From a virus, in IMG/VR virus record IMGVR_UViG_3300046690_000186, positions 1-49,961 of that record: 49,961 nucleotides of DNA; one strand, given 5' to 3'. Every line of letters begins with the position of its first letter. Position 1 is the stretch's first letter. Both the position numbers and the translations under genes were made by a program. This document shows positions 3,498 to 15,200 of this stretch, in pieces. A model generated the notes under the pieces. It saw only the letters and a list, made by a program, of their open reading frames with translations, was not told the DNA's origin and made no database searches.

Positions 3498-5552
3498 ATG
3501 CTGCATTTCAAACGATCCGCCGTCGCCGCCATGTGCGCCGAGGCGATGGCGCTGATCGAGCCGCCGCGCAAGGTGCTACCGGCCGATTGGGCCGCGCAAA
3601 ACCTGATCGTGCCCGACGGCCCGCGCGCTAACGAAAAGTGGGACCCGAGCCTAACGCCTTACGTCGTCGAGCCGTTGAACAACAGCGGGCCGGAGTCGAC
3701 CGTCAATAAATGGGCGGTGCGCAAGAGCGCGCAAACCGGCTTCACGGTGATGGCGATTGCGATCGTTGGCTCGACGATCGACACCGACCCGTCGGGCGGC
3801 ATCCTGCTCGTGCAGCCAACCGACGGCGCGCTCGCCGACTTCATTGCTGACAAGCTCAATCCCTCGATCGAGCAGTCGGCCGCGCTCAAGGCCAAAGTAA
3901 AGCCGCAAGTCTCGCGCTCGGGCGAGGGATCGACGACCTATCTCAAGCGCTATCCGGGCGGCTCGATGGCGCTCGCGATTGCCAACTCAACCGCCGATCT
4001 GCGCTCAAAAACAAAGCGCAAGATCATCAAAGACGAGGCGAGCGAGTATCCCGACGATCTCGACGGCCAGGGTTCGCCGCACGCGATGATCGAGGCGCGT
4101 TATGAGTCGTTCCTCGACACCGGCGACTGGAAAGAGGTGAACATCTCGACGCCGACGGTTAAGGGCGCGTGCTACATCGACAAGCAATTCGAGGCCGGCG
4201 ACCAGCGCCTTTGGCATGTGCCGTGCCCGCATTGCGACGGCAAATTCGCGTTCCGCTTCGGCCCGCAATTCAAGTTTAACGACGCGTTCCCGTATCAGGC
4301 GCACTACATCGCGCCTTGCTGCGGTGCTGTGATCGAGGCGCATGAGAAAAAGCCGCTCGTGCAGAAGGGCGAATGGATTTCGCTGGCGCCGGGGCCAGGC
4401 AAGTTTCCGTCCTACCATATCGACGCGATGTCGTCGCCGTTCGTGCCGTGGGACAAGATCGCCGAGCGCTGGATCACGGCGCAAGGCGATCCGGCCAAGC
4501 TGAAAGCGTTCTACAATCTGACGCTCGGCGAGGCTTTCGAGATCAAGGGCGACGCGCCCGATCACGTGCGGCTGATGGAGCGCCGCGAGGATTACCCGAA
4601 AGGGCGCATCCCCGCGCGCGGCCTGATGCTCACGGCCGCCGCCGACGTGCAGATGAATGGCATCTATGTCGAGGTGGTGGCGTGGGCGCCCAATCGTGAG
4701 TCCTGGGTTGTGTTCGTCGATGTGGTGGAGGGTGACACCACCAACGCCAACGCCGGCGCCTTCCTGAAACTCGGCGAGCTTTACGATCGAGAGTGGCCCG
4801 ACGCGTTCGGCAACCGCCGCAAGGTGGATGCGTTCGCGATCGACTCCGGCTTTCGCTCGCATGTCGTCTATCATTGGTGCCAGTCGCGCCATAACGCCTA
4901 TGCGGTGGACGGCCGCGACGGCTGGCATCTGCCGGCGATCGGTACGCCGAGCGTCAAGGATATCGATCTCGACGGCCGCAAGCTTGGTTATGTCAAGCTG
5001 TGGCCCGTCGGCACGTGGCCGTTGAAGGGCCATTGGTACGAAGATTTGCGCAAAGAGGGCAAGTCGGCCGGCCACGAAGTCGATCCGCCGGGCTACTGCC
5101 ATTTCGGCAAGTTTCTCGACGAGAATTACTTCAAACAGGTCACGGCCGAATATCTCGCCGATGTTCGCAATCGCGGGCGGCAAACCAAGCGTTGGGAGCC
5201 GCGCGGAAACCAGGCCAACCATTGGTTTGACTGCCGCGTGTACAACATGGCCGTCGCCGATCACCTCGGCTTGTCCACGATGACCGAGGACGAGTGGAAA
5301 ATTCTTGCGCGCGAGCGCGCGCCGACGATCTCGCAAGGCGATCTGTTCGCCGCGCGCCCGCTCGCCGTTCAAATTGCGTCTAGTCCCGCGTCCGCAATGC
5401 CGTCCGATCAGGACGGCGACGATCCGCCGCCGGTTCAAGTCGTGTCACCGCCCGCAAATGCCAGTGACGACGCGCCGGCGGCGCGATCCCAAGACGAGCC
5501 GAGCGGCTCGGGGTGGATCGGCCGCGATCTCAGCAATTGGGGCAGCCGATAG
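3498..5552 (+). CDS. Terminase large subunit, lambda GpA family
   Basis: At 684 aa the length is usual for GpA-type terminases, which pump DNA into the prohead by ATP hydrolysis and cut the concatemer with a C-terminal nuclease. The adenine-binding/Walker A region is KSAQTGFT (residues 76-83). KIIKDEASEYP supplies the Walker B acidic pair. A CPHC...CC cysteine cluster (after HVPCPHCDGKF) matches the GpA zinc-like element. Acidic residues of the nuclease lie in AADVQMNGIYVEVV and DAFAIDSGF. GpA-type enzymes are known from cos phages such as lambda. It follows the small subunit by 9 bases. Confidence 0.93.
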   Translation: MLHFKRSAVAAMCAEAMALIEPPRKVLPADWAAQNLIVPDGPRANEKWDPSLTPYVVEPLNNSGPESTVNKWAVRKSAQTGFTVMAIAIVGSTIDTDPSGGILLVQPTDGALADFIADKLNPSIEQSAALKAKVKPQVSRSGEGSTTYLKRYPGGSMALAIANSTADLRSKTKRKIIKDEASEYPDDLDGQGSPHAMIEARYESFLDTGDWKEVNISTPTVKGACYIDKQFEAGDQRLWHVPCPHCDGKFAFRFGPQFKFNDAFPYQAHYIAPCCGAVIEAHEKKPLVQKGEWISLAPGPGKFPSYHIDAMSSPFVPWDKIAERWITAQGDPAKLKAFYNLTLGEAFEIKGDAPDHVRLMERREDYPKGRIPARGLMLTAAADVQMNGIYVEVVAWAPNRESWVVFVDVVEGDTTNANAGAFLKLGELYDREWPDAFGNRRKVDAFAIDSGFRSHVVYHWCQSRHNAYAVDGRDGWHLPAIGTPSVKDIDLDGRKLGYVKLWPVGTWPLKGHWYEDLRKEGKSAGHEVDPPGYCHFGKFLDENYFKQVTAEYLADVRNRGRQTKRWEPRGNQANHWFDCRVYNMAVADHLGLSTMTEDEWKILARERAPTISQGDLFAARPLAVQIASSPASAMPSDQDGDDPPPVQVVSPPANASDDAPAARSQDEPSGSGWIGRDLSNWGSR

Positions 5553-5590: not shown

Positions 5591-6229
5591 ATGACTAAGC
5601 CGAGCCTCTACATCATCGGCGCCGACAAGGGCGGCGTCGGCAAAACCACCATCACCCGCGCGTTTCTCGACTATCTCGACGCGCTCGGCGTGCAGAACCG
5701 GCCTTTCGATACCGAGAACGAGGTGCCGGGCGGCGTGCTCAAGCGTTTCTATCCCGAGCGCGCCGAGGTGGTCGATCTCGTCGACTCCGACGGGCAGATG
5801 CGCGTTTTCGACACGCTCAACAGCCTCGCGGCTACGGTGATCGACATCCGCGCCGGGCTGTTGTCGCCGACGCTGCAATTGCTCGCCGATATCGGGTTTC
5901 TCGATCTCGACAAATACGCGATCACCGTGTTGCACGTGCTCGGCAACACGCAAACGTCGATCGATGAAATCAAGCCGGTCGCGGCCAGGCTCGCCGCCGG
6001 CGCCCGTCACATCGCGATCGGCAATCGCATCAACGCGACGAAATTCAACTTCCCGGCCGATGCGCTCGACGTTCCGATGTTGAGCGCGGCGGCCGTCGAG
6101 GCCGTCGATAAATCGAACATGCCTTTCCGTGTGTTCGGCAAGGAAAATCCATCTGCGGTGCTTCGCGGCACCGTGAACACGTGGCTCGATCGCGTCTTTG
6201 TGCAGTTCGCAAGCGCCAAGATCGCCTAG
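5591..6229 (+). CDS. ParA/MinD-like P-loop ATPase
   Basis: This is a 212-aa protein opening with a deviant Walker A box GADKGGVGKTT (about residues 9-19), the signature of the ParA/MinD/SRP-type ATPases, with the signature lysine of KGGVGKT. VIDIRAGL is a plausible Walker B segment. It is shorter than plasmid ParA and lacks an N-terminal HTH, so it is closer to orphan ParA or VirC1-like proteins. No ParB follows. It lies between the large terminase and the head genes, where such an ATPase is not a standard component. A role in locating phage DNA or assembling particles at a cellular site is inference. ATG 5591 has AAGGA upstream. Confidence 0.8.
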   Translation: MTKPSLYIIGADKGGVGKTTITRAFLDYLDALGVQNRPFDTENEVPGGVLKRFYPERAEVVDLVDSDGQMRVFDTLNSLAATVIDIRAGLLSPTLQLLADIGFLDLDKYAITVLHVLGNTQTSIDEIKPVAARLAAGARHIAIGNRINATKFNFPADALDVPMLSAAAVEAVDKSNMPFRVFGKENPSAVLRGTVNTWLDRVFVQFASAKIA

Positions 6230-6246: not shown

Positions 6247-6513
6247 ATGACTGAGGCGCCGGTTAAATCTCTCGATCAGCTAACGGCCGATGTCGGCCCC
6301 GACGGCAAACATCGACTTGAGGCCGTCGTCGTCGGCGCTCGCGATAGCGCCGGTGCCGCCATCAACCCCGATTTTTATGCGCATGCTTTCACGTATGGCG
6401 CCGACAACAACCTCGCGACGGATTCGTTTAGCGATGGCGTCAACACGTGGGTGCAGACGTTCACCTACACGTCGGGCCAGTTGACCGCAGTCAGTGCGTG
6501 GGTGAAGGCATGA
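6247..6513 (+). CDS. Small beta-rich structural-type protein, 88 aa
   Basis: ATG 6247 follows a clear AAGGAG ribosome site. The C-terminal half (FSDGVNTWVQTFTYTSGQL, ending AVSAWVKA) reads as alternating beta strands like small virion or fibre-associated proteins. Its stop overlaps the start of the SGNH-like gene (ATGA at 6510-6513), so the two are translationally coupled and probably work together. No enzyme motif is visible. A virion decoration or spike adaptor is the most likely role, by inference. Confidence 0.6.
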   Translation: MTEAPVKSLDQLTADVGPDGKHRLEAVVVGARDSAGAAINPDFYAHAFTYGADNNLATDSFSDGVNTWVQTFTYTSGQLTAVSAWVKA

Positions 6514-7892
6514 CATCGATCAGCCAAACGCTCAAGCACCTCGCGGCGCTCGGAATGTATCCGGCGCGGCAATATCTATGGGATACGTTCGACATCCTCG
6601 GCGATAGCCGGGCCGATGCGATTTCCTCGGCCATCCTCGGCCAGGCCCACGGCACTCAAGCCAACCATTGGTTCTCCTGGGTGCGTGCGATGAGCATGCA
6701 CAAGTACAAGCTCGGACTTGCGCTCGGCATCTCCGGCAAGACGCCGGATCAATACATCAACGCCAATCTGAGCAAGGCGCTCGCGAGCAAGTCGGGCTGG
6801 CTGGTATTCGACAAGCCGCTGATCAACGCCATCATGGCGGTTCCGAACGGCGGCGTTTTTCCGTACACGAATAGCAATGGCGTTGTCGTGACGGCGACGA
6901 ATGTTGCGCAAGTCTCGGTTGGCGACATCATCGCGGCGGCCACGAAGGCCCTCGCGATCGGAAAGCGCGTCTTGATCACGGCCGAGCCGGGATCGACCGG
7001 CGTCTCGCAAGCGATGTTGAACCAAGTGTTTCTTGCATCGGACATGCTGAAAGCATGGTGCGCGGTAACGCCGGGAGCCTATTTTTACGATCCGCGCCCG
7101 CGCATTTGGGCCGCGACGGCGTCAACGACCGCACTCGCCTTCAAGCCTGGGTTCTCGTCGGACGGCACGCATGCCTTTCCGTTGATGGCGTACACCGAGG
7201 CCATCGACATCAAGCAAATGCTCGATCCCGTGGTGCTCGGAAACGATAGCGGGCCATCGCATATCGCGATGCTCAATTCGAACTACACGCGCCAGCTTTT
7301 CGCTAATCCGCTATTCAATGCGACGAGCGGCGGAATTCGCACAACGATCGCGGGCACGGGCAACGTTCCGGGCGGCGTGACGCTCTCTGGCGCCGCGACG
7401 ACGACGTGCAACATCACTTATGCGGCGAACGCGAACGGGCTCGGAAACGATGTCACGTTTGCATTTAGCGCCAGCGCAGCCGACTCGTCGGTGAAAATCC
7501 TTTTGGCTCAACCGGCCCTCGGGCTGTGGTCGCTGAATAACTATCTCACGTGCGGCATCGACGTGGATGTCGCCGCCGGCGCTTTGAATGCGTCGGTGCC
7601 GTATCTCACGAATGCAATCGGCGCCGTGGTTAGCGGCTCAAACGTCGGCGCGTCAACTTACGATATGTATTCGAACGTCGCGAATTGGGTTAGCCCGGCG
7701 GCAGCCTATCCGCTGCGGCTGCGGACTCCCAAGACGCGGCCTGTTGATCTGCTCCCCGGCGCTACTGCGCAGTGGTACACGCAATTCCTCCTGACTCCGA
7801 TTTTCTTCGGTGCAGGCAACATCACGCTGACGCTGCGCCGGCCGACGTTCGAGGCAGGGCTCGTCTACGCGAACGGCGCATTCGCCGGGTAG
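6510..7892 (+). CDS. SGNH/GDSL-like hydrolase domain virion-type protein
   Basis: This is a 460-aa protein. The N-terminal 230 residues carry the landmarks of an SGNH hydrolase: block I GDSR (residues 31-34, nucleophile S33) and block V DGTH (218-221, acid D218 and base H221). The C-terminal half is rich in Gly, Ala, Thr and Asn with beta-sandwich character (TTIAGTGNVPGGVTLSGAA), as in carbohydrate-binding or fibre modules. Such enzymes deacetylate or de-esterify polysaccharides. Its location inside the head cluster, not with the tail fibres, suggests a capsid-borne enzyme or head spike. I did not identify the block II Gly and block III Asn with certainty. Confidence 0.65.
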   Translation: MTSISQTLKHLAALGMYPARQYLWDTFDILGDSRADAISSAILGQAHGTQANHWFSWVRAMSMHKYKLGLALGISGKTPDQYINANLSKALASKSGWLVFDKPLINAIMAVPNGGVFPYTNSNGVVVTATNVAQVSVGDIIAAATKALAIGKRVLITAEPGSTGVSQAMLNQVFLASDMLKAWCAVTPGAYFYDPRPRIWAATASTTALAFKPGFSSDGTHAFPLMAYTEAIDIKQMLDPVVLGNDSGPSHIAMLNSNYTRQLFANPLFNATSGGIRTTIAGTGNVPGGVTLSGAATTTCNITYAANANGLGNDVTFAFSASAADSSVKILLAQPALGLWSLNNYLTCGIDVDVAAGALNASVPYLTNAIGAVVSGSNVGASTYDMYSNVANWVSPAAAYPLRLRTPKTRPVDLLPGATAQWYTQFLLTPIFFGAGNITLTLRRPTFEAGLVYANGAFAG

Positions 7893-8113: not shown

Positions 8114-9628
8114 ATGTCGAGGTTTCTCAAGGCGCTCGCCTACGTCGCGCCGATGGCCGCCGTTCGCCGCGCTCACGCGTTCGCCGCGCTCGATGCCGGC
8201 CGATCCTATGACGGCGCGATGGTTGGCCGGCGCGGCAAATCGTTCAAGGGATCGTTGCAGGATAGCGCCAACGGCGAGATTGGGCCGGCGCTGACAAAGC
8301 TTCGCGCCCGCTCAAGCGATCTCGTGCGCAACACGTGGATTGGCGCGCGATGCCTCGACGTGTTGTCGGCGCATGTGATCGGCACCGGCATCACCGTGTC
8401 CTGGGAAGATGAGCGGCTGCAAGCGCTGTGGGATGAATGGTGCCTGTCGTCGGATATCGAGGGCGTGCAGGATTTCGCCGGGCAGCAGTTGACGGCGTTC
8501 CGCTCGTCGCTTGAGCGCGGCGATAGCGGTGTGCGCATGGTGCCGCGCAAGCGCGGCGGTGATCGTCGCATTCCGCTGGCGCTGCAAGTCGTCGAGGGCG
8601 ACGTGATCGCAACCGAACGCAACGGCTTGTTCGAGGGCAAAAAATCGCGCCTCGGCGTGGTGCTCGGCGATTGGAATGAACGTGAGGGCTATTGGCTGCA
8701 CCCCGAGCATCCCGGCGAGATGGGCCTCACGCCGCAGGGCGTGAACATCATGCCGAATTTCGTGCCGCGCGCCGACTTCTGCCACCTCTACCGCGTGTTG
8801 CGGGCCGGCCAGGTGCGCGGCGTGCCGCTGCTCTCGCCCGTGCTGATGGACGCGCGCGACTTCGCCGACGTGATGGACGCGAGCGTGGTCAAGCTGCGAA
8901 TGGAAGCCTGTTACGGCCTGATCGTCAACGCCGCCGATCCGGTCAAAAATCTCGCCGACGCCAAGACGCGTCAAGACGATGCGGGGCGCAACATTGAGGG
9001 CATGTCGCCCGGCATGATCTATCGCGCCAAGCTCGGCGAAAACGTGCAAGCGTTCTCGCCGTCGGGCTCCGGGCAATTCGAGCCGGTCGCGTTCGCCGCG
9101 TTGATGGGGATCGCGTCGGGCGGCATGATCACTTACGATCAGTTGACCGGCGATTTGCGGCAGGCGAATTATTCGTCGCTCAAGGCCGGTGAGCGCATTC
9201 TCAAGGTGCTCGTCGAGCAAATCCAGTGGTTGCAGTGTACGCCGCAACTGATGCACCGCGTCACCGAGCGCTGGCTCTCAATGGCGATCTTGGCCGGCGA
9301 GGTGCGCGCGCGCAAGAAACCCTATGGGCGTTCCTACGTGATGCCGGCGGTGATGCCGATCGATCCGCTCAAGGATTTGAAGGCCGATATTCTCGCCGTG
9401 CGATCGGGCCGGATGTCGCCGCAGGAATTCATTGGCGGTTGGGGCCGCGACTGGCGCAAGGTTGTCGAGGAAACTCGCACGTTCTGGCAGGAAGCCGACA
9501 AGGGCGACGATCCGCTCGTGCTCGATATCGATCCTCGCCGCGTCGATCAACTCGGCAAGTCGCAATTGACGCAGGATGCCGAGTCCGATCCGTCCGATGA
9601 TAAAAACCTCGGCAACGCCGGGGAATAG
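8114..9628 (+). CDS. Portal protein, lambda gpB family
   Basis: At 504 aa it is of normal length for the lambda-type portal family. It shows the family pattern: an early RARSSDLVRNTWIGARCLDVL segment, a GTGI turn, then PRADFCHLYRVLRAGQVRGVPLLSPVL and TYDQLTGDLRQANYSSLKAGE. The portal forms the dodecameric ring at one capsid vertex through which the terminase packages DNA. The C-terminus is acidic and probably flexible. It starts 4 bases after the gpW-like gene and ends 12 bases before the protease-capsid gene. Confidence 0.93.
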   Translation: MSRFLKALAYVAPMAAVRRAHAFAALDAGRSYDGAMVGRRGKSFKGSLQDSANGEIGPALTKLRARSSDLVRNTWIGARCLDVLSAHVIGTGITVSWEDERLQALWDEWCLSSDIEGVQDFAGQQLTAFRSSLERGDSGVRMVPRKRGGDRRIPLALQVVEGDVIATERNGLFEGKKSRLGVVLGDWNEREGYWLHPEHPGEMGLTPQGVNIMPNFVPRADFCHLYRVLRAGQVRGVPLLSPVLMDARDFADVMDASVVKLRMEACYGLIVNAADPVKNLADAKTRQDDAGRNIEGMSPGMIYRAKLGENVQAFSPSGSGQFEPVAFAALMGIASGGMITYDQLTGDLRQANYSSLKAGERILKVLVEQIQWLQCTPQLMHRVTERWLSMAILAGEVRARKKPYGRSYVMPAVMPIDPLKDLKADILAVRSGRMSPQEFIGGWGRDWRKVVEETRTFWQEADKGDDPLVLDIDPRRVDQLGKSQLTQDAESDPSDDKNLGNAGE

Positions 9629-9639
9629 AAGGGCACTCA

Positions 9640-11694
9640 ATGATCAAAACGCATTGGATGCGCGGCGTTGCCGCGCGTCCGCATCAGACTCCCGACGGCT
9701 TCGTTCCGGGTGAGATCGTCTCGCGCGCGTCGAGTGACGATCTCTCGGCCCGGTTCACGCCGTCGAGCTACAACAAAGCCAAGCGCACCGTCGAGGCGAT
9801 CTTTTCCGCCGGCTCGCGTGTGTCGCGCTGGGGCGTGTTCGAGGAATTGGCGATCTCGCCCGAGGCGATCGACTTGAGTCGTGTCGCGCTCGGGCAGGTT
9901 CGTTTGCTCGACACGCATTCGCAAGGTTCGATCGACGCCGTGTTCGGTGTCGTCGAGGAAGCGCGGATCGAGGGCGGCAATCTCGTCGGCCGCATCCGCT
10001 TTGCCGACACCGAGGGCGGCCGGAAAGCCGAGGGCATGGTGGCCCGAGGCGAGATCACCGGCATCTCTGTGGGCTACCGCGTAACGACGTGGACTCTTAC
10101 GTCGCTCGCAAACGAGGTTGAGGTTTGGCGCGCCGACCGTTGGGAGTTGCTTGAAGTCTCCCTCGTGTCGGTTCCTGCCGATCCTCAAGCGTCGATCCGC
10201 TCGACGCAAGTTTCATCGCAACGGGCAGATGATGCCCAATCTTCAATGGAGAATGACGACATGCGGCGCAATGCTGCCAATCCCGCCGACATCACCCCGG
10301 CAACCCCGCCCGCCCCGGCGCCCGAGGGCACCCGCGCTGCACCCGCTCCGGCGGTTGTGCCGCCCGCGCCCGAGGCCACGCGCGCCGCGCCCGGCCCCGA
10401 CGCCGCGACCCTGATCGCCGCCGAGCGCACCCGCTCTGCCGAAATCGGCGAGATCGGCACCCGTGCCGGCATGGCCGCCGCTGACGTTGCCGCTGCGCAG
10501 CGTGACGGCGTCACCGTCGAGGCGTTCCGAACCCGCGCTTTCGATCACATGGCAACGCAGGCCGATCGCACCCGCTCGTCGAGCGTCACGATCACCCGCG
10601 ACGAGACCGACACGCGTCACCGCTTCATCACCGATGCGCTCACGGTGCGCATGGGCGGCGCCTCGGCGCTTCGCGACGCTGCGGGCCAGGTCCGCGCGCT
10701 CGATGCGGCGGCTCGGGAATATTCCGAGTATGGCTTCGCTGACATCGCGGCGATCGTGCTCAATGAGCGGCGCATGCCGGTCACTGCGGCGCAGCGCGAG
10801 GATGTGATCCGCCGCGCCATGACAACGACCGCCGATCTTCCGGTGATCTTCGAGTCGACCGTCAACCGCGTTCTGCTCGCGCGCTACCAGATTGCCGAAA
10901 CGACCTATCGGCAGATTTCGATTCAGCGCAACTTCCGCGACTTCCGGCCGCACGAGCAGTTGCGCGTCGGCGACTTCCCGACTTTGCAGCCGGTGACGCA
11001 GTCCGGCGAGATCAAGTTCGGTTCGTTCGGTGACAGCAAGGAAGTCGTCGCCGTCGCCCCGTACGCCGTGCAGTTTGCGATTTCGCGTCGCATGCTGATC
11101 GACGACAATGTCGGCGCGATCGACCAGATGCTCGGCAGCTACGGCGCGACCGTCGCTCGTTTCGAGGAAAACACGTTCTACGCGATGAAGGCGGCGAACG
11201 GCGGCGCCGGCCCGACCCTGATCGACGGCAACGCGGCCGTGTTCCACACTGCCAAGCACGGCAACCTCGCCGCTGCGGGCACCGCGCTCACGTCCGACGA
11301 TCTCGGCAACGGCCGCGCGGCGATGCGCAAGCAAAAGGATCAGTCGGGCCAGTTGCTCAATCTGGCACCGCGTATCCTCGCCGTCGGCCCGGATATGGAG
11401 ACCGACGCCGATCGCGTGCTCGCCGTCATCACCCCGACCAAAGAGGGCGATGTCAATCCCTTCGGCGGCAAGATGCGTTCCGTCGTGATCCCCGTCGCGG
11501 GCAACGGCTGGGAGCTCTACGCCGATCCGTCCGTCGCGCCGGTTTTCGTGTGGGGCATGCTCGACGGCTACAATGCGCCGCGCTTGCGCATCGAAAACCC
11601 GTTCGGCGTCCAGGGCGTCGGCGTGTCGCTCGAACACGATTTCGGTTGTGGCGCGATCGACTATCGCGGCGGCTATCGCAACGCCGGCCTGTAA
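9640..11694 (+). CDS. Prohead protease fused to major capsid protein
   Basis: This is a single 684-codon frame. Residues 1 to about 180 form a U35/HK97-type prohead serine protease: H93 in LLDTHS and S143 in GEITGISVGYRV fit the catalytic His and Ser. Residues 190 to about 270 are a Pro/Ala-rich linker. Residues 355 to 684 are a capsid fold of the Mu-type major head protein (RNFRDFRPHEQLRVGDFP, AISRRMLIDDNVGAID, ending GCGAIDYRGGYRNAGL). Protease and shell are usually separate genes. An in-frame ATG at 10261 with a good ribosome site could give capsid protein without protease. A terminator follows. Confidence 0.9.
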   Translation: MIKTHWMRGVAARPHQTPDGFVPGEIVSRASSDDLSARFTPSSYNKAKRTVEAIFSAGSRVSRWGVFEELAISPEAIDLSRVALGQVRLLDTHSQGSIDAVFGVVEEARIEGGNLVGRIRFADTEGGRKAEGMVARGEITGISVGYRVTTWTLTSLANEVEVWRADRWELLEVSLVSVPADPQASIRSTQVSSQRADDAQSSMENDDMRRNAANPADITPATPPAPAPEGTRAAPAPAVVPPAPEATRAAPGPDAATLIAAERTRSAEIGEIGTRAGMAAADVAAAQRDGVTVEAFRTRAFDHMATQADRTRSSSVTITRDETDTRHRFITDALTVRMGGASALRDAAGQVRALDAAAREYSEYGFADIAAIVLNERRMPVTAAQREDVIRRAMTTTADLPVIFESTVNRVLLARYQIAETTYRQISIQRNFRDFRPHEQLRVGDFPTLQPVTQSGEIKFGSFGDSKEVVAVAPYAVQFAISRRMLIDDNVGAIDQMLGSYGATVARFEENTFYAMKAANGGAGPTLIDGNAAVFHTAKHGNLAAAGTALTSDDLGNGRAAMRKQKDQSGQLLNLAPRILAVGPDMETDADRVLAVITPTKEGDVNPFGGKMRSVVIPVAGNGWELYADPSVAPVFVWGMLDGYNAPRLRIENPFGVQGVGVSLEHDFGCGAIDYRGGYRNAGL
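10248..10263 (+). promoter_or_regulatory. Internal ribosome site and in-frame start within the protease-capsid gene
   Basis: GGAG at 10248-10251 is followed after nine bases by ATG 10261, in frame with the long gene (codon 208). The start lies at the protease/capsid boundary, in front of the Pro/Ala-rich linker. Translation from here would give a 477-residue product with a scaffold-like N-terminus plus the capsid domain, in excess over the full fusion. Lambda C/Nu3 and similar nested pairs are the precedent. Confidence 0.5.
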
Positions 11695-11716: not shown

Positions 11717-11749
11717 AGGCGGGCGGCTTAGGGCCGCTCGCCTTTTTTG
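11717..11749 (+). terminator. Intrinsic terminator after the major capsid gene
   Basis: AGGCGGGCGGC (11717-11727) pairs with GCCGCTCGCCT (11733-11743, one G-T) around a 5-base loop, then a T run to 11748. It lies 23 bases after the capsid stop and would lower expression of the genes downstream or process the capsid transcript. Confidence 0.8.
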
Positions 11750-11782: not shown

Positions 11783-12121
11783 ATGGCAAAGAATTACGTG
11801 CAGCACGGCCACGTGCTCGACTTGACGGCGCCCGCTGGCGGCGTCGTCTCCGGTACGCCTTACCTGATCGGAAGCATCTTCGGCGTCGCCGTCGATACCG
11901 TTGCGCAGGGCCTTCCCTTCCCGCACGGCGTCGATGGCGTGTGGGGCTCCCTTCCCAAGAAAACCGCCGAGGCCTGGGCCGAGGGCCAGGCGCTGTATTG
12001 GGATGACGTGAACAAGTATCTCACGACGACCGCCGGCTCGCTCAAGCGCGTCGCTTTCGCCGTCGTGGCTGCGCAGGCCGCCGACACCGTCGGCACCGCC
12101 AAGATCGTTTCTGCGGTCTAA
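11783..12121 (+). CDS. DUF2190 family capsid decoration/cement protein
   Basis: This is a 112-aa protein with the DUF2190 look: an early GHVLDLTAPAGGVVSGTPYLIG stretch, a central FGVAVDTVAQG, then AEGQALYWDDVNKYLTTTAG and a C-terminal GTAKI. Members of this family follow the major capsid gene in many phages and include decoration proteins that stabilise the expanded head. ATG 11783 has AGAGGA upstream. Confidence 0.85.
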   Translation: MAKNYVQHGHVLDLTAPAGGVVSGTPYLIGSIFGVAVDTVAQGLPFPHGVDGVWGSLPKKTAEAWAEGQALYWDDVNKYLTTTAGSLKRVAFAVVAAQAADTVGTAKIVSAV

Positions 12122-13694: not shown

Positions 13695-15200
13695 ATGTCG
13701 GTGTTGTTAAACAACATTCCGGGCAACCTCTTGGTGCCTTTCTTCTATGCCGAGATCAACTCGGGCGGCACGCCGTATCAGAATGATCCGCGCGTCGTCC
13801 TGATCGGGCAGAAACTCACGGCCGGCTCGGCTACCGCCGGCACCGTGATCGGCCCGATCCAGAACCAGGCCGAGGCCGACGCTTTCTTCGGTGTCGGCTC
13901 GATGCTGTCGGCGATGTTCACGATCGCTCGCCGCAACGCGCCGTTCCAGCCGCTTTGGGCGTTGCCGCTGGCCGATCCCGCCGGCGCCAAGGCCGCCGGC
14001 TCGCTCACGTTCACCGCGCCCGGCGTCACCGGCGCCGCCATCCTGTGGGTGCTCGGCCGCCGCGTCGTGTTTCAGGTCAACGCGGCGCACACGTCGGCGC
14101 AGGTTGCGACTGCAGCCACGGCGGCGATCAACGCGGCCAATCTGCCGGTTGTCGCGGCCGTGGATGGCACCACGGCATCGAAAGTCAACGTGACCGCGCG
14201 GCACGTCGGCGCGCTCGGCAACGGGCAGGAAGTCACCTTTGCGACTGACGAGTCGAATTTGCTGGTGGCCGCCAATGTGACGGTCGTCGCGATGACCGGC
14301 GGTAGCGGCGTGCCCGATCTCGTCGCGCCGTTCGCGAGCCTCGGCGACGAAGAATTCGACTTTCTCGCCGGCCCGTATAGCGACACCGCGTCGCTCAATG
14401 CCGTGCGCGACTTCCTCGACGACACCGCCGGCCGCTGGTCTCCGATCCAGCAGCTTTACGGTCATTACTTCTCGACGCAGTTCGGCACGCTGTCGGGCCT
14501 CGTGACGTTCGGCGACGGCCGCAACGACCAGCACGTGACCGTGCTCGGCTCGCAGCGCTCGCCGACGCCGGAATGGGAATGGACCGCCGCGCTCGCCGGC
14601 AAGGCAAGCGCGCATCTCGGCGACGCGCCGGAAGTCTCGCGCCCGCTGCAAACCCTGACGCTCGACGGCGTGTTGCCGCCGCGTGATCGTGGCGTGTGGT
14701 GGGACATCGTCGATCGGCAGGCGCTCTACGCCGACGGCATCGCGGGTTACAAGGTCCGCGCCGACGGCATCGTCGCGATCGACCGCGTCGTCACCACCTA
14801 CCAGAAAACCGCCGCCGGCGTCGGCGATGGCACCTTCCGCGATGTTGAAACGATGTTTCAGCTTATGTTCGCGGTGCGCTACTTCAAGACGCTGGTGAGC
14901 AACCGCCACTCGCGCCAGGCCCTCGCGGATGACAATCCGTTCAACCTCGCCGAGATCGCGACGCCGAAGTCGATCCGCAACACGCTCGTGCATGCGTACA
15001 ACGATCTCGTCGCGCTCGGCGTGCTCGAAAAGGGCGATTTGTTCTCGCAGTATGTCAACGTTGAGCGTGATCCCAACGATGCCAACCGCGTCAACGCCTA
15101 TCTGCCGGTCGATGTCGTCAATCAGTTGCGCGTGTTCGCCGCCAACGTGACGGCGTTCCTGCAATACCAGTCGCCGTCCGGCGACTCGGCTGTCGTCTAA
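13695..15200 (+). CDS. Contractile tail sheath protein, Mu gpL-like
   Basis: At 501 aa it matches Mu-type sheath size. The N-terminus FYAEINSGGTPYQNDPRVVLIGQ, the GSMLSAMFTIARRNAPFQPLWALPL block and the C-terminal sheath domain (NTLVHAYNDLVALGVLEKGD, then VNVERDPNDANRVNAYLPV) are characteristic. It polymerises around the tube and contracts on adsorption, so the virion is a myovirus. A GGAG ribosome site precedes ATG 13695. Confidence 0.93.
   Translation: MSVLLNNIPGNLLVPFFYAEINSGGTPYQNDPRVVLIGQKLTAGSATAGTVIGPIQNQAEADAFFGVGSMLSAMFTIARRNAPFQPLWALPLADPAGAKAAGSLTFTAPGVTGAAILWVLGRRVVFQVNAAHTSAQVATAATAAINAANLPVVAAVDGTTASKVNVTARHVGALGNGQEVTFATDESNLLVAANVTVVAMTGGSGVPDLVAPFASLGDEEFDFLAGPYSDTASLNAVRDFLDDTAGRWSPIQQLYGHYFSTQFGTLSGLVTFGDGRNDQHVTVLGSQRSPTPEWEWTAALAGKASAHLGDAPEVSRPLQTLTLDGVLPPRDRGVWWDIVDRQALYADGIAGYKVRADGIVAIDRVVTTYQKTAAGVGDGTFRDVETMFQLMFAVRYFKTLVSNRHSRQALADDNPFNLAEIATPKSIRNTLVHAYNDLVALGVLEKGDLFSQYVNVERDPNDANRVNAYLPVDVVNQLRVFAANVTAFLQYQSPSGDSAVV

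Follow-up and report, generated by a model that had tools for sequence, protein, structure and literature searches.

Background

In bacteriophage Mu, the scaffold gene Z is annotated as starting in frame within the protease gene I, while gpT, the major head protein, is encoded separately and has a start of its own, which gives the order protease, scaffold, capsid (I, Z, T). In lambda, the protease C, which is of the S49 type, and the scaffold Nu3 lie in one frame, with nu3 annotated as beginning within C and the portal gene located directly upstream; the decoration protein D and the capsid protein E are separate genes. HK97 (gp4/gp5) has an S78-type protease and a capsid protein of HK97 fold to which a scaffold-like N-terminal domain is fused, protease and capsid being separate genes. 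The UL26/UL26.5 genes of herpesviruses yield a protease-scaffold and a shorter scaffold from one frame, resulting in few proteases and many scaffolds. There the short form, UL26.5, results from an internal promoter, with the capsid protein unfused.

Genes in which the protease is fused to the capsid protein pose a puzzle, as hundreds of shell subunits would each bring a protease into the procapsid. Such fusions have been classified: NCBIfam NF045541 ('prohead protease/major capsid protein fusion protein') and PHROG 4523 are described as fusions, NF045540 comprises the ClpP-type fusions, and the model names make no mention of an internal start. In the literature that we searched, which was limited to open-licence papers and is weak evidence in this respect, protease-capsid fusions are mentioned (PMC8601537, PMC6536676), an Achromobacter phage paper presents protease and capsid as separate genes, and no description of an internal start in protease-capsid fusions was found.

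Features of the fusion gene

The window, i.e. the whole stretch of viral DNA analysed here, has a length of 49,961 nt. A previous inspection of its letters (the sequence-only reading) had proposed that a U35-type prohead protease with residues H93 and S143 shares one frame with a Mu-type capsid protein. The first part of this proposal was confirmed. One open reading frame of 684 aa encodes both parts (Table 1), His and Ser are found at positions 93 and 143 and are invariant among close relatives, and Peptidase S78 (PF04586) is matched with 44 bits vs 21, from which catalysis is predicted only. The second part had to be modified: the capsid domain is indeed present, but its top Pfam match is Phage_capsid_4 (PF25209, 4.8e-42), with Mu gpT giving a partial and weaker match (8e-8). 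The protein scores 546 bits against NF045541 (cut-off 525) over residues 44-683 and also matches PHROG 4523. The fusion as such is therefore already known as a named family.

In the AlphaFold2 model, which is of moderate confidence (pLDDT 64), residues 178-252 have very low confidence and are mostly unstructured; the protease lies on one side of them, the helical segment (255-313) and the capsid fold on the other. Foldseek matched the model to phage capsids and encapsulins with E about 1e-5. Because of the moderate confidence of the model, this search of PDB folds confirms the capsid fold only.

Table 1 Coordinates of the fusion gene, its internal start site and its neighbours in the window. 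SD denotes Shine-Dalgarno; energies are those of pairing with the anti-SD.
Feature	Position	Strand	Remarks
Large terminase subunit	3498-5552		5' of fusion gene
Portal protein, lambda-type	8114..9628	+	Directly 5' of fusion gene
Upstream SD-like AAGGG	9629..9633	+	Just past portal stop; 6 nt before ATG 9640; -4.5 kcal/mol
Full-length protease-scaffold-capsid fusion	9640..11694	+	684 aa, 73.3 kDa
S78/U35-type prohead protease domain	9817..10209	+	Residues 60-190, PF04586; His93, Ser143
Linker, Pro/Ala-rich, predicted disordered, low-confidence	10171..10395	+	Residues 178-252; contains Met208
Other in-frame ATG, codon 203	10246..10248	+	Without SD, +0.4 kcal/mol
Internal SD GGAG	10248..10251	+	Nine bases before ATG 10261; conserved in relatives
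Internal start codon ATG, codon 208, in frame	10261..10263	+
Nested scaffold-capsid product, predicted	10261..11694	+	477 aa, 50.8 kDa; deduced from start site
Helical segment, putative scaffold domain	10402..10578	+	Residues 255-313; function inferred from position
HK97-fold major capsid domain	10816..11682	+	Residues 393-681, PF25209
Head decoration/cement protein	11783..12121	+	Directly 3' of fusion gene; PF09956 (search began at 11747)
Sheath, contractile tail module	13695-15200		3' of fusion gene

Putative internal start site

The sequence-only reading had pointed to an in-frame ATG with GGAG nine bases upstream and a Pro/Ala-rich linker directly after it, and all three are in place at codon 208. 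Among the 17 in-frame ATGs of the gene, this codon has both the strongest anti-SD pairing (-6.4 kcal/mol, compared to -4.5 at the annotated start) and the weakest 70-nt RNA structure (-13.9 vs -27.3 kcal/mol). Met208 falls inside the linker that is predicted to be disordered and that separates the S78 protease from the scaffold-capsid part. The ATG of codon 203 was rejected as a start, having no SD and being lost in several relatives. Taken alone, the SD of the window is not a basis on which we claim significance: 71% of synonymous shuffles were equally strong, i.e. in this single sequence the amino acids explain the SD strength. What makes it significant is the comparison with relatives given below.

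We used Mu Z as a positive control with the same scoring. Within gene I, its site, caggagaacaaacccATG, ranks first in SD strength (-7.4) and has weak structure (-13.8), and the signature of SD caggag, ATG and weakly structured RNA is that of the window site. When lambda C was scored in the same way, the top ATG was found at NC_001416 5342 (L165:1143) with an SD of -9.7, compared to -6.4 for the annotated nu3 start at 5132. This suggests that the annotated start may be placed too far upstream; the real Nu3 is presumably shorter than annotated, which would agree with the top-ranked ATG.

The window gene resembles the known systems in several respects and departs from each of them. It shares with Mu the order of protease, scaffold and capsid and a nested start within the protease frame, with lambda the nested start and the portal directly upstream, and with HK97 the type of protease and the scaffold-like segment ahead of the capsid fold. 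Its in-frame internal start with an SD past the protease domain corresponds to that of Mu I/Z. However, there is no free scaffold apart from the capsid protein; the nested frame continues through the capsid domain, which makes the window gene an I/Z-like variant. Since scaffold and capsid form one chain, unlike in Mu, the nested product would be the shell subunit itself.

Conservation of the putative start signal

The relatives came from viral contigs, one contig each of Rhodopseudomonas and Afipia, 392 bacterial genomes belonging to a single family, and annotated phages, giving 72 distinct full-length S78 fusions and 34 representatives at 60% identity. The criterion was an in-frame ATG located at most 50 codons past the protease domain and preceded by an SD that pairs with -5.5 kcal/mol or better. 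Such a site is present in 61 of the 72 distinct fusions and in 26 of the 34 representatives, so the homologues do keep the ATG and ribosome site, as the sequence-only reading had suggested checking. An in-frame ATG with an SD of this strength occurs in 7.9% of other windows, and 9.6% of other in-frame ATGs are preceded by one, the control windows being taken from the same genes and the relatives being not fully independent. In synonymous shuffles, 11.2 +/- 2.2 of the 34 representatives had such a site, and none of 300 trials gave more than 17. The site is also less structured than the other ATGs in these genes (-16.8 vs -23.7, p=1e-5) and than its own synonymous shuffles (-16.0 vs -18.4, p=0.001). 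On the basis of these sequence comparisons, the SD-ATG signature past the protease domain is not due to chance. The site of the Rhodobacter capsulatus phage RcOceanus, aaaggaaagaccATG, is one example.

In most of the remaining 11 of 72, the SD is weaker, the start codon is GTG or the ATG is slightly more distant, e.g. AAAGGACACCGG-ATG and AGGAGCCTTCCA-GTG. Once GTG and weaker SDs are allowed, a candidate is present in 69 of 72, a looser figure in which the best of several codons is picked. Fusions without the site, which had been named as evidence against the proposal, are thus largely not found: clear absence is limited to three of the 72 (L077, L078 and L081), all of which have a shortened junction with little or no linker. 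These three indicate that a fusion can exist without the internal start. Along with the start, they have lost most of the linker/scaffold region.

Separate-gene relatives and alternative explanations

In Faecalibacterium phage FP_Epona, protease and scaffold-capsid are two genes, the second of which starts at the junction with AGGAGGtacccatctATG. Four prophage loci (L074, L075, L076 and L082) are split at the same junction, with an SD of its own before each capsid gene. At the start of the scaffold-capsid gene, these four loci encode a signal-peptide-like or membrane-spanning stretch (L082:1281-1370), e.g. MSTKRSYLMAAFSIAVAMVAVLAMSPDAFA; it would be unusual for a scaffold to be tethered to the membrane.

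The existence of separate-gene relatives makes a two-gene ancestry plausible and raises the question of whether the junction is a relic of that state, in which the old capsid start survives unused and only the full-length protein is made, to be cleaved by its own protease. That three fusions manage without the site would also fit. However, an unused start would decay, whereas the SD-ATG pair has been retained in linkers that have otherwise diverged. The SD cores are spread over the three codon phases (16/6/8), and the peptides at these positions are as varied as KG, ME, QE, RS, EE and RGE, among others, which indicates that an RNA signal and not a conserved peptide is what has been kept. The deficit of RNA structure at the site is likewise at odds with a relic, and we consider this explanation quite unlikely.

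Still less probable, in our view, is that the SD-like sequence acts as a translational pausing site, helping the protease to fold before the capsid part, with no start taking place. Although it is located exactly between the two domains, as pausing would have it, the density of SD-like cores is no higher in the linker (11.2 per kb) than elsewhere (11.5 per kb). What sets the linker apart is that 28 of its 57 cores (49%) are followed by an in-frame ATG at start spacing, compared to 20 of 686 (2.9%) elsewhere (p=2e-22), and pausing needs neither an ATG nor unstructured RNA. We therefore rejected it. Equally hard to sustain is that E-x-D-D-M is kept for a reason at the protein level, such as a protease cleavage site, with the SD a by-product of the codons: the peptide is conserved within the window's own clade, but SD plus ATG are still present elsewhere with unrelated peptides (IRSHDM, TKGNRM, EAPMPE, REENAM), and synonymous codons are fixed at the site, GAG and GAC GAC never being swapped for synonyms in the 14 relatives with ExDDM (relatives that are not independent).

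Fusions with other protease types

Most ClpP-type fusions carry the same site; in MD8, mEp043, Psul1, PSTCR8, Pmp14 and Yong805, an SD and ATG are found right after the protease. In the bacterial family of G001, a search with NF045540 gave just one genome above the cut-off. We also observed a third kind of protease-capsid fusion (L027, L028, L087, L088, L089 and L106). Two of these, L027 and L028, hit head maturation protease families (PHROGs 29592 and 15531); in a Pfam search, the N-terminal part of L027 gave no protease match. An SD and ATG are again located right after the protease in L027 and L028, and L087, L089 and L106 have no ATG with an SD of -4.7 or better at the junction.

We lean towards a general rule, in which a nested start at the junction belongs to the protease-scaffold-capsid fusions of tailed phages whether the protease is S78, ClpP-like or of the third type, and fusion is tolerated mainly when the same message still allows a shell subunit without the protease to be made separately. 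Cultured phages with fusions, such as RcOceanus, Pseudomonas phage MD8 and Stenotrophomonas phage S1, are suited to testing this rule.

Proposed mechanism

The reading that we favour, and regard as highly likely, is that a nested start of the Mu/lambda type has been retained in the protease-scaffold-capsid fusion, so that products of 73 kDa and 51 kDa would come from one gene. Initiation at ATG 9640 would give the full-length protein, and initiation at the internal site (GGAG 10248-10251, ATG 10261) the scaffold-capsid protein without the protease. Most of the procapsid shell would be built from the short form, with the protease domains, limited in number, supplied by the long form; these domains would later digest the linker/scaffold, and also themselves, from inside. 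The gene would then represent Mu I-Z-T condensed into a single frame, with the nested scaffold start (Mu I/Z, lambda C/Nu3) kept in a gene whose scaffold and capsid parts are fused.

The sequence-only reading had anticipated a minor full-length and a major scaffold-capsid product that together set the stoichiometry of protease to shell. As for the second product, the comparison of relatives, the separate-gene relatives and the Mu control all argue strongly in its favour, and very probably both a protease-capsid and a protease-free scaffold-capsid protein are made from the one gene. That both starts are used and that they serve stoichiometry is what we infer from the conserved signature; the short form as the major product would fit how the two starts compare in SD strength and RNA structure. 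A conserved nested start would remove the puzzle of protease dosage, few proteases and many shell subunits being possible from one gene. What is annotated as the major capsid protein in many records of phages and prophages may then be the minor product.

Other genes of the window

Two further genes are located between those of the large terminase and the portal protein. Positions 5591-6229, an unusual place for such a gene, encode a small ATPase; its ParA/CbiA match is weak and falls below the Pfam cut-off. A 460-aa open reading frame at 6510-7892 has no Pfam or PHROG match.
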